Assembly: GCF_024199795.1 (NCBI RefSeq)
Contig: NZ_JANADK010000001.1
Coordinates: 6,138,001-6,202,000, forward strand
Origin: Bradyrhizobium sp. CCGB01
Lineage (GTDB): Bacteria > Pseudomonadota > Alphaproteobacteria > Rhizobiales > Xanthobacteraceae
Reading direction: 5' to 3'
DNA: 64,000 nt
In this document: positions 57,603 to 59,424 of the stretch, in pieces
Position numbering within the stretch: position 1 is the stretch's first letter
Layout: each line of letters starts with the position of its first letter
Notes under the pieces: generated by a model
What the model saw: the letters and a program-made list of their open reading frames with translations, nothing else
Told to the model about the DNA's origin: nothing
The model's database searches: none
Translations under genes and position numbers: made by a program

Positions 57603-58754
57603 TCATGCGCTCTCGGGCGCCTTCAGGCGCACGAGCCGGGTCAGGAGAGCATCGAGGCCCTCGCCGTTGCCGGCGTGAAGATCGATGCGGCCGACCTTCT
57701 CGACCAGCCGCTCCAGCGACTCCAGCTCCTTGAGCCGCAGCAGCAGAGGGTTCTCCTCCATCAGGCGTGCGGTGTTCAGGAGCGAACGCGTCGCCGCGGT
57801 CTCCTCCTGCCGGCGGATCAGGTTCGCCTTGGCGACCCGCTCCGCCTCGACCACCTTGTTCACCAGTTCCCGGATCTCGCCGGGCAGGATCACATCCTTG
57901 ACGCCGAGCTCGGTCACCTCCACGCCGGACTCCGCGACGCGTGCCCGCACATAGTCGCGCAGCTCCGCGTCCAGCGCCGCCTTCGCGGACAGCACCTCGT
58001 CCAGCGTCCGACCGGCGACCGCTTCGCGGATCGCGAACTGCACCAGCCGGTACAGCCACGCATCCACGTCGGGCACGGTCGCCACCGTCCGCTCGGGATC
58101 GACCACCCGGCGGAACGCCGTCAGCGTCACCCGCAGCGCGATGCGATCCCTGGTCAGCATCTCCTGCGCAGTGATCTCGACCGCCTGGGGCCGCAGGTCG
58201 AGGCGCTTCACCTCGATCTTGCGGCCGACGGTCCAGAAAGCGTGCCGGCCGGGCGCGAGCCGCTGCACCAGCCGGCCCTCGACATAGAGCAGGCCGGCCT
58301 CGTGGTTCTCGACCACCGTCTCGCTCACGACGGTCGAGCGGCTCCGCTCGATCATGGTCAGGTGCCGCGCATCGACCCGGGGATCGCTGGACACATCGAT
58401 GCGCTCGACATCGATGCGGGTCGCGACCTTCCAGTAGACGCGGATCTGCCAGGGCGTCATCAGATGCACGGGCCGGCCGTCGAGGCTGACGATGGCGACC
58501 TCGTCCGCCTTGGTCTCGACCGCCTCGAACAGCTCGGCGGCGAGATCAGGCCGCGCGGCCTTCAGCACCGCGTAGCGATCCGCGGGGAATTCGGTCCCCA
58601 CGACGTTGTACACGGTGGCCGTCAACTCGTTGCGCAGATCGAACAGGCGATGCCGCCCAGGCGCGAGCACACGCTCAAGCTGGCCGTTTCGCGTGAGTAG
58701 CGCGCGCTCACCGTCCTTCACGGTGACCGTGGTCGTCAGCAAGTGCCAGGTCAT
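57603..58754 (-). CDS. Slipin-family protein (SPFH/band-7)
   Basis: 383 residues. It lacks a transmembrane helix at the N-terminus (MTWHLLTTTVTVKDGERALL), contains the SPFH/band-7 domain (VENHEAGLLYVEGRLV, EITAQEMLTRDRIALRVTL, RREAVAGRTLDEVL-like core) and ends in a coiled-coil (EAERVAKANLIRRQEETAATR ... LKELESLERLV). GGAGG precedes the ATG at 58754. SPFH/band-7 proteins are proposed scaffolds in bacterial RNA-repair loci, where they travel with a tRNA-like RNA; two such sequences lie upstream on the same strand (59086-59230). No RNA ligase gene is present in this window. Confidence 0.88.
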   Translation of the reverse strand: MTWHLLTTTVTVKDGERALLTRNGQLERVLAPGRHRLFDLRNELTATVYNVVGTEFPADRYAVLKAARPDLAAELFEAVETKADEVAIVSLDGRPVHLMTPWQIRVYWKVATRIDVERIDVSSDPRVDARHLTMIERSRSTVVSETVVENHEAGLLYVEGRLVQRLAPGRHAFWTVGRKIEVKRLDLRPQAVEITAQEMLTRDRIALRVTLTAFRRVVDPERTVATVPDVDAWLYRLVQFAIREAVAGRTLDEVLSAKAALDAELRDYVRARVAESGVEVTELGVKDVILPGEIRELVNKVVEAERVAKANLIRRQEETAATRSLLNTARLMEENPLLLRLKELESLERLVEKVGRIDLHAGNGEGLDALLTRLVRLKAPESA

Positions 58755-59085
58755 GACACGCCTCCATCGTTTGCGCCCGGCCGGATGCCGGACAACAGGT
58801 TTCGTTTGCAAAGGACGTGAGGACGCGGACGACGCTTCCTGAAAAATCGGCGGGCCGTGGCTTGAGCTTGCACGATGACGGGCGCACGCGCGCGATCGCC
58901 CGACACGCGTCGGGCGTTCGCACGAAGCCACCCGGCATCAGCGCAAGCGGTATCCACCGCGGCACGGAGCCGGTTTCACAGTGTCGTTGTTCGGTCGGAA
59001 GCCTTTTTGGGCAAAACGGCCGGACGGCGACTGAAGCGCGCGTCCGGTCCTCGTCAGAGGTATCAGCTTTTCAGGCTGAAACGGA

Positions 59086-59159
59086 GCGCTGGAGCGGGAT
59101 TCGAACCCGCGTCACGATGAGTAACAGTCATCTGCTCTACCAAACTGAGCTATCCTTTG
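59086..59159 (-). ncRNA. tRNA-like RNA 1, tRNA-Asn(GUU)-like with defective acceptor stem
   Basis: Reading on the minus strand from 59159: D-arm GCTC..GAGC, anticodon stem GATGA/TCATC with the loop CTGTTAC (GUU), and T-arm GCGGG-TTCGAAT-CCCGC are all intact. The acceptor is not: 5' CAAAGGA faces 3' TCCAGCG, with only 4 of 7 pairs, and no CCA follows. A working tRNA-Asn is therefore unlikely. It abuts the second tRNA-like module with no spacer and is in line with the slipin gene. Confidence 0.7.
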
Positions 59160-59230
59160 TGCAAGAGACCGGAATCGAACCGATGCCTTCGGGTGTTCAA
59201 GCCCGACGCTCTCCATGAGCTACGTCCTGC
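59160..59230 (-). ncRNA. tRNA-like RNA 2, eight-base anticodon loop
   Basis: Minus strand from 59230: acceptor GCAGGAC/CTCTTGC pairs at 6 of 7 positions, D-arm GCTC-ATGGA-GAGC has a very short 5-nt loop, anticodon stem TCGGG/CCCGA encloses an 8-nt loop CTTGAACA, and T-arm ATCGG-TTCGATT-CCGGT is intact. Total 71 nt with a final A and no CCA. The extra loop base and the single extra base before the D-arm make a decoding tRNA unlikely. It is immediately followed by tRNA-like RNA 1. Confidence 0.65.
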
Positions 59231-59424
59231 GTTTCTGCTTCATTCGGCGGAACACGAAACCGCAGAGCGGCCCGCGCCAGTCGGGATCTCAGAGAGCCCG
59301 AACCCATGGCCTAGCGAAGGAGCGGGCTAATAGACGAAGCACGTTCGGGTTGCAAGAGGGGAGTGCAAGATTTTTTCGTCACGCGCCTTTCGCTGTGACG
59401 CGATCGTCACACCGCAGCAACGCC

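Follow-up and report, generated by a model that had tools for sequence, protein, structure and literature searches.

Here we describe a slipin gene with two tandem tRNA-like RNAs, RNA A and RNA B, upstream of it, located in a 64,000-nt stretch of Bradyrhizobium sp. CCGB01 (contig NZ_JANADK010000001.1, positions 6,138,001 to 6,202,000; hereafter, the window). The main result is that the anticodon of RNA B is hypervariable. The slipin gene (57603-58754, minus strand) encodes a protein of 383 aa with a Pfam Band_7 domain (E 1.3e-32), and RNA B (59085-59159) and RNA A (59161-59230) lie upstream on the same strand. A preliminary description of the window had already reported this arrangement with the right coordinates; anticodon hypervariability was absent from it. 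Within a tRNA family, few parts are normally as fixed as the anticodon. An RNA that retains its body while its anticodon outpaces third codon positions is difficult to account for unless the anticodon loop is under selection. In 2016, Burroughs and Aravind reportedly described an SPFH/Band-7 module of RNA-repair loci that includes a novel tRNA-like RNA. We put at about even the chance that the loci studied here are an alphaproteobacterial branch of that module, free of rtc genes, in which RNA B would act as an anticodon-loop decoy.

Hypervariability of the RNA B anticodon

Pairs of loci were binned by their divergence at slipin third codon positions, using 61 loci of Bradyrhizobium (the genus of the window) and 30 of Mesorhizobium with a parsed RNA A. 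For the 94 Bradyrhizobium pairs in the 0.06-0.10 bin, the RNA B anticodon diverged at 0.418 per site, next to 0.221 at loop positions 32-33, 0.309 at 37-38, 0.037 in the anticodon stem, and 0.029 in the T arm. The same pairs gave 0.205 for the RNA A loop, 0.202 for 40 columns of DNA located 5' of the leader, and 0.088 for slipin third positions. The 72 Mesorhizobium pairs in the 0.10-0.15 bin presented 0.481 in the RNA B anticodon, 0.031 in the T arm, 0.045 in the leader, and 0.000 in the anticodon stem, a value that held for the stem in every bin of the 30 loci. Overall, the RNA B anticodon changed faster than every other region in each of the nine bins with at least 40 pairs. Pairs share loci, and the binned divergences are therefore descriptive and not independent tests. 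On the slipin trees of the two genera, with loops of other lengths scored as states of their own, the minimum number of anticodon-state changes was 39 for 62 Bradyrhizobium loci and 15 for the 30 Mesorhizobium loci; the stem needed 11 and 0.

Resemblance to real tRNA loops

We compared RNA B loops with those of 95 tRNAs from two genomes only, that of the window (G000) and G298, which gave 54 distinct loops and 45 anticodons. Loops of a length other than 7 nt were left out, together with five loci where the wrong element was parsed (L057, L124, L195, L224, and L234); RNA B was not parsed in L117-L120 and L217. Outside the genus of the window, positions 33-38 of RNA B equalled a real loop in 64/103 cases, when permuting anticodons against their flanks gave a mean of 43.5 (p ≤0.0005). 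Counting distinct loops, 23/56 matched a real one (13.7 by column shuffle, p ≤0.002), and dropping three duplicate loci left 61/100 matches at 33-38 (40.8 permuted, p 0.0002) and 28 anticodons.

Exact real loops in 61/100 cases and the replacement of several sites at once would also fit a loop that is a hotspot of mutation or is converted from genomic tRNA genes, in either case without selection. We regard this explanation as very unlikely: conversion tracts should carry stem bases along, though the anticodon stem is unchanged in 30 Mesorhizobium loci, and many loops in the genus of the window equal no real tRNA.

Alternatively, the tRNA fold could be a scaffold resembling a Y RNA, bound by slipin or another protein, with the anticodon loop free to drift. 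The conserved body and stems next to a non-conserved loop agree with it, as do the own-genus loops, at most marginally real-like. RNA A and RNA B are, like YrlA and the bacterial Y RNAs, tRNA-like noncoding RNAs that may accompany RNA repair, and window positions 59134-59185 match YrlA weakly (28.2 bits); with a Rfam gathering score of 69, we rejected YrlA identity. The TROVE/Ro60 partner of YrlA has no match in the window genome. A competitive-inhibitor role has been suggested for YrlA in the accessible part of one report (PMC7790460). Neutral drift, however, predicts neither the real-like loops outside the genus nor the rates in the 94-pair bin, where divergence in the anticodon was about double that of the DNA on the 5' side of the leader and almost five times that of slipin third positions. 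Thus, we find the scaffold explanation quite unlikely.

RNA B as a possible anticodon decoy

The decoy reading would work as follows. RNA B may be a bait whose anticodon loop imitates that of a tRNA and is offered to ribonucleases that cleave anticodons (toxins, of phage or host origin); the anticodon of RNA B would track the shifting set of such nucleases. RNA A and the leader hairpins 5' of it would be the fixed parts, with a role in folding, in processing or in binding proteins. As for the slipin, it lacks an evident N-terminal membrane segment, may oligomerise like other SPFH proteins, and could bind and concentrate the RNAs or their cleavage products. At loci outside the class that are linked to rtcR and rtcB, bait would be made while tRNAs are cut and repair would come after; the alphaproteobacterial branch would work without them. 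tRNA mimics as decoys for tRNA-cutting toxins are an old guess that becomes directly testable, as the current anticodon would predict the nuclease.

Several observations weigh against the decoy reading. In the genus of the window, RNA B loops matched real ones at 33-38 in 18/54 cases (16.5 permuted, p 0.30) and over the whole loop, 32-38, in 14/54 (10.1 permuted, p 0.04), so own-genus mimicry was not found by the first measure and was marginal by the second; moreover, some of these loops have 6 or 8 nt. Mimicry was not found for RNA A, whose 7-nt loops matched real ones at 33-38 in 0/21 cases in other genera and 1/22 in the genus. RNA B over-uses U36, that is, anticodons for ANN codons (65/103 outside and 29/54 inside the genus, vs. 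12/45 real anticodons), and part of the loop match may therefore come from UAA being structurally preferred at 36-38. The reference of two genomes also counts here. Regarding the rates, the RNA A loop was ahead of the RNA B anticodon in small Mesorhizobium bins (0.367 vs. 0.222 in 9 pairs; 0.600 vs. 0.333 in 1 pair), positions 37-38 of RNA B tied with the anticodon at 0.286 in a 7-pair Bradyrhizobium bin, and close loci are not independent. Fast anticodon change could come from mutation or conversion without selection, and no PADLOC model matches the slipin. The decoy role, the binding by slipin, and the arms race are what we infer from sequence comparison; the resemblance of the loops is partly demonstrated, outside the genus.

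The preliminary description had suggested that the module, if it acts alone, does so perhaps as a scaffold and decoy for tRNA-cleaving toxins. A decoy is the best-supported role for RNA B. The two RNAs are unlike each other, and only the loops of RNA B resemble those of real tRNAs, at most marginally within the genus of the window.

Conservation of the unit

A 186-nt piece with both RNAs had matches in 64/195 genomes of the same genus (E 1e-12), and slipin was downstream of the match in 63 of them. The 64th (G108; L110 and L329) lacks the leader, the 5' part of RNA A, and the RNA B T arm, and other DNA follows; none of the stretches read showed a slipin. At larger distances, slipin was present in 22/199 genomes of the order (E 1e-40 or better), and the slipin alignment matched 23/398 genomes of a phylum sample (E 1e-50 or better).

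We collected 183 upstream regions: 63 own-genus loci, 20 of the order, 80 named loci, which are the best 80 of 580 confirmed contig stretches (at least 593 pattern matches), and 20 from the phylum sample. Three duplicates are included among the 183, and two among the 100 alphaproteobacterial loci considered below (identical over 600 nt). Upstream of slipin, 181/183 loci matched a covariance model built for RNA B that recognises RNA A as well (80/80 named, 63/63 own-genus, and 38/40 of the rest). A sequence profile matched 181/183 at E 0.01 and 178 at 1e-5. For L120 and L217, the two loci without a match, the available stretch extends only a little way upstream. ARAGORN reported an upstream tRNA-like RNA on the slipin strand in 161/183 loci and on the opposite strand in 0/183. 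One locus (L232) carries three tandem tRNA-like RNAs upstream of slipin, not two.

A homologous slipin locus is found in 1624/5426 complete E. coli genomes, always on the chromosome, and laboratory work is therefore within reach. In the E. coli copy at L325 6680-8130, there is a sigma54-like site, and the tRNA-like RNA is reduced to a T-arm remnant. In Citrobacter and E. coli, this remnant is a weak match (model positions 50-64 of 74, 12 bits, E 0.073).

RNA folds and covariation

In the window, RNA B presents perfect D, anticodon, and T arms and an acceptor that is good only beside the D arm; its anticodon loop is CTGTTAC (GUU; 59121-59127, minus strand). RNA A has an 8-nt anticodon loop, CTTGAACA (59194-59201, minus strand), for which ARAGORN reports a four-letter 'anticodon', and a shortened D loop. 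Neither RNA has an encoded 3' CCA. The preliminary description, where RNA B and RNA A were called RNA 1 and RNA 2, had correctly given the perfect arms with GUU and the weak acceptor of the former, the anticodon and D loops of the latter, and the missing CCA. The Infernal-type check that it proposed also agreed: both RNAs are above the Rfam tRNA gathering score of 29 (52.0 bits for RNA B, at 59091-59155, and 38.9 bits for RNA A), and tRNA is the sole Rfam family over its own cut-off in the window and five relatives. Against covariance model R1, RNA B of the window scored 78.4 bits, this copy being among the 37 sequences that built the model.

Covariation in homologous loci, also proposed there as a test, is strong. 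The cloverleaf was fixed in advance, and the alignments held 37 sequences for RNA B and 35 for RNA A (the window plus 36 and 34), drawn from 64 loci where ARAGORN calls both RNAs, a selection that favours paired cells. Paired cells amounted to 91.0% in RNA B and 91.9% in RNA A, and 16/21 pairs showed two-sided changes in each. The covariation scores, 0.521 for RNA B and 0.556 for RNA A (0.152 and 0.176 when shuffled), were reached by 0/500 shuffles, and sliding the partner columns gave 0.143 at most.

Because the ARAGORN preselection favours pairing, the RNA B count was repeated on 175 loci whose choice and alignment relied on sequence only. The anticodon stem had 98.9% of cells paired, with both sides changed in 304/872; the T stem, 100% and 137/875; the D stem, 98.6% and 2/700; and the inner three acceptor pairs, 97.7% and 97/525. 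The outer four acceptor pairs were paired in 40.1% of cells, so a short acceptor is the rule.

Judging from these and other sequence features, RNA B does not resemble a tRNA that could be charged. Its CCA is encoded in 4/170 loci (4/108 outside the genus of the window, 0/62 inside; automatic register), and that of RNA A in 50/77 outside and 25/61 inside (automatic register). CCA can be added post-transcriptionally, and therefore an unencoded CCA alone proves nothing. All seven acceptor pairs form in 8/101 parsed RNA B copies outside the genus and 0/59 inside, and in 33/68 parsed RNA A copies outside. Leu and Ser tRNAs have a long variable arm; in RNA B, a Leu or Ser anticodon goes with a variable loop of 4-5 nt in 27/27 copies. 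The RNA B anticodon loop has 7 nt in 158/178 parsed loci and holds 28 anticodons in 103 loops outside the genus and 18 in 54 inside. That of RNA A has 4, 5, 6, 7, or 8 nt in 14, 16, 57, 44, and 11 of 142 parsed loci. A functional tRNA was rejected for RNA B on the changing anticodon, the rarely encoded CCA, the class I variable loops on Leu/Ser anticodons, and the open outer acceptor.

That these are ordinary or decaying tRNA genes standing beside slipin by chance would agree with two RNAs above the Rfam tRNA cut-off. It is an extremely improbable explanation for RNAs that are kept next to slipin across the phylum, with many anticodons in one slot, strong covariation, and, in RNA B, a rarely encoded CCA and open outer acceptor pairs. 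A decayed tRNA cluster found without slipin in relatives, which the preliminary description had named as the case that would overturn its proposal, is ruled out by the covariation and by slipin downstream of the RNA match in 63/64 same-genus genomes.

Leader elements and a possible role in slipin expression

The unit turned out to be longer than previously described, although the coordinates given for its RNAs and slipin were right. Read 5' to 3' on the minus strand, it consists of a sigma70-like site, two hairpins, RNA A, RNA B, a leader of about 330 nt, and slipin. The sigma70-like site, TTGCAA-N17-TATTAG (59327-59355), is a consensus match only, within a stretch mostly conserved in an 11-locus alignment. 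On the 5' side of RNA A, the leader has two hairpins (59280-59304 and 59248-59279; 59248-59304 together). They comprise 16 predicted pairs, and for 13 of these one sequence or more differs on both sides, in an alignment of 30 of 36 selected loci from which the structure itself was predicted. From RNA B to the slipin start (58755-59084), the leader is conserved and apparently structured, with a strong hairpin at 59020-59047. By RNAalifold on 62 same-genus loci, two-sided change was seen in 28/111 pairs of this leader (shuffled mean 12.5, maximum 18), with the structure again predicted from the alignment used for counting.

With all elements 5' of slipin on one strand and signs of structure between RNA B and slipin, the chief rival to the decoy reading is a regulatory leader. 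The tRNA-like parts would be processing or sensing elements of the slipin mRNA (e.g., for cuts by RNase P, RNase Z or an anticodon nuclease), and tRNA damage would set slipin expression with no action in trans. This explanation gains from minigenes, that is, a start, a few codons and a stop, with a Shine-Dalgarno-like sequence, which precede slipin in 46/50 non-Mesorhizobium named loci (shuffled mean 5.1, maximum 11), 22/30 Mesorhizobium loci (3.7, maximum 8), and 7/11 of L121-L131 (1.2, maximum 4), the controls being mononucleotide shuffles. However, the same scan found no minigene in the window, 0/8 in L112-L119, and 0/14 outside the class, and at most 10/63 in the genus of the window (shuffled mean 2.0, maximum 7), where one printed instance overlaps the slipin start. 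Moreover, pure cis processing leaves the fast, real-looking replacement of the anticodon without a reason. We consider a regulatory leader unlikely.

The minigenes lie about 40-90 nt before slipin (L121-L131 and L132-L211), e.g., ATG ACG TGA, GTG CCT TAG, and TTG CGA CGA CGA TAG.

Relation to RNA-repair loci

The window shares with the SPFH/Band-7 module the SPFH protein and the adjacent tRNA-like RNA on the same strand. It differs in having no rtcB, rtcA, or rtcR beside it, in the two tandem tRNA-like RNAs, found in many loci here, and in the hypervariable anticodon of RNA B. We therefore class it as an rtc-free branch of the module, short of a complete RNA-repair locus. Linkage to rtc genes, a context feature of the module, was the usual state outside the class: of 14 homologous loci there (L221-L234), 11 had rtcB, 6 had rtcR, and 12 at least one of them within about 1.5 kb. 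The same search placed rtcB near slipin in 0/100 alphaproteobacterial loci (L112-L211), assigned to the class by kinship and record titles, with flanks mostly of 6-9 kb and shorter at contig ends; the query was RtcB of the window genome, about 27-31% identical to the copies found. Five of these 100 loci presented only 37-38% identity matches to the middle of RtcR, residues ~201-429. The module can thus stand apart from rtc genes in a whole class, and therefore its function need not depend on a nearby RtcB.

Among the 22 slipin genomes of the order (two of the window's genus), Pfam searches retrieved RtcR in 4 and RtcB in 13. Leaving G000 aside, neither was ever on the slipin contig, in a set where many assemblies are fragmented. 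The window genome is a single contig of 9.3 Mb and has no RtcR or RtcA match. Its RtcB is beside peptide chain release factor H (PrfH; NCBIfam) at ~5.187 Mb (L003 7089-8896), outside the slipin locus and about 1 Mb from it. The RtcB-PrfH pair has been tied to RNA damage, according to the accessible part of one report (PMC6514570).

The preliminary description had supposed an orphan module, with partners elsewhere or acting alone. A conserved slipin/tRNA-like unit free of rtc genes was borne out, and it is no oddity of this locus, being the rule among the alphaproteobacterial loci examined. As for the partners, none is beside the locus and RtcB is elsewhere in the genome; RtcR and RtcA did not appear. 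RtcR-type sigma54 control was rejected for the window, its motif being present in 0/63 own-genus loci, 1/20 of L112-L131, 2/80 of L132-L211, and 5/20 of L213-L234. In Citrobacter, slipin comes after rtcR and before a nucleotidyltransferase gene.

In P. aeruginosa, the SPFH gene paFlo8 is embedded in an rtc locus, as far as the accessible part of that report goes (PMC13086221). Apart from this gene, an incomplete check of the literature, based on partial texts, gave nothing on slipin with a tRNA-like RNA, nor a report of tandem copies, an rtc-free alphaproteobacterial branch or anticodon hypervariability.

The slipin protein

The slipin of the window has the SPFH domain and fold in common with stomatin/slipin, HflK/C, erlin, and prohibitin, and differs from them in extra N-terminal beta units and in lacking an N-terminal hydrophobic segment. 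AlphaFold2 predicted three beta units, the SPFH domain, and a long helix (mean pLDDT 82.0). The best 19-residue Kyte-Doolittle mean within the first 60 residues was 0.41. Hydropathy gave no N-terminal hydrophobic segment in 37 aligned relatives, with a first-60-residue maximum of 1.11 at most, in a set where many rows begin after the true start (that of the window does not); a value of 1.6 was reached outside the first 60 residues in 4/37 proteins. On this prediction from hydropathy, we set aside the membrane stomatin/slipin class. Membership in the major vault protein family, marked by tandem vault repeats ahead of an SPFH-like shoulder, was not established.

Tentatively, and as a rather doubtful extension of the decoy reading, slipin might form a soluble SPFH assembly, somewhat like a small vault, that carries tRNA mimics with a swiftly exchanged anticodon bait in an arms race with anticodon nucleases, and does so without Rtc enzymes in alphaproteobacteria. 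The bait would then be comparable, at the RNA level, to a hypervariable recognition loop.

Finally, the slipin protein had no match in 50,697 phage records at E 1e-10. Eight plasmid records matched it at E 1e-40, all below 60% identity, and seven of them are about 1 Mb or larger.

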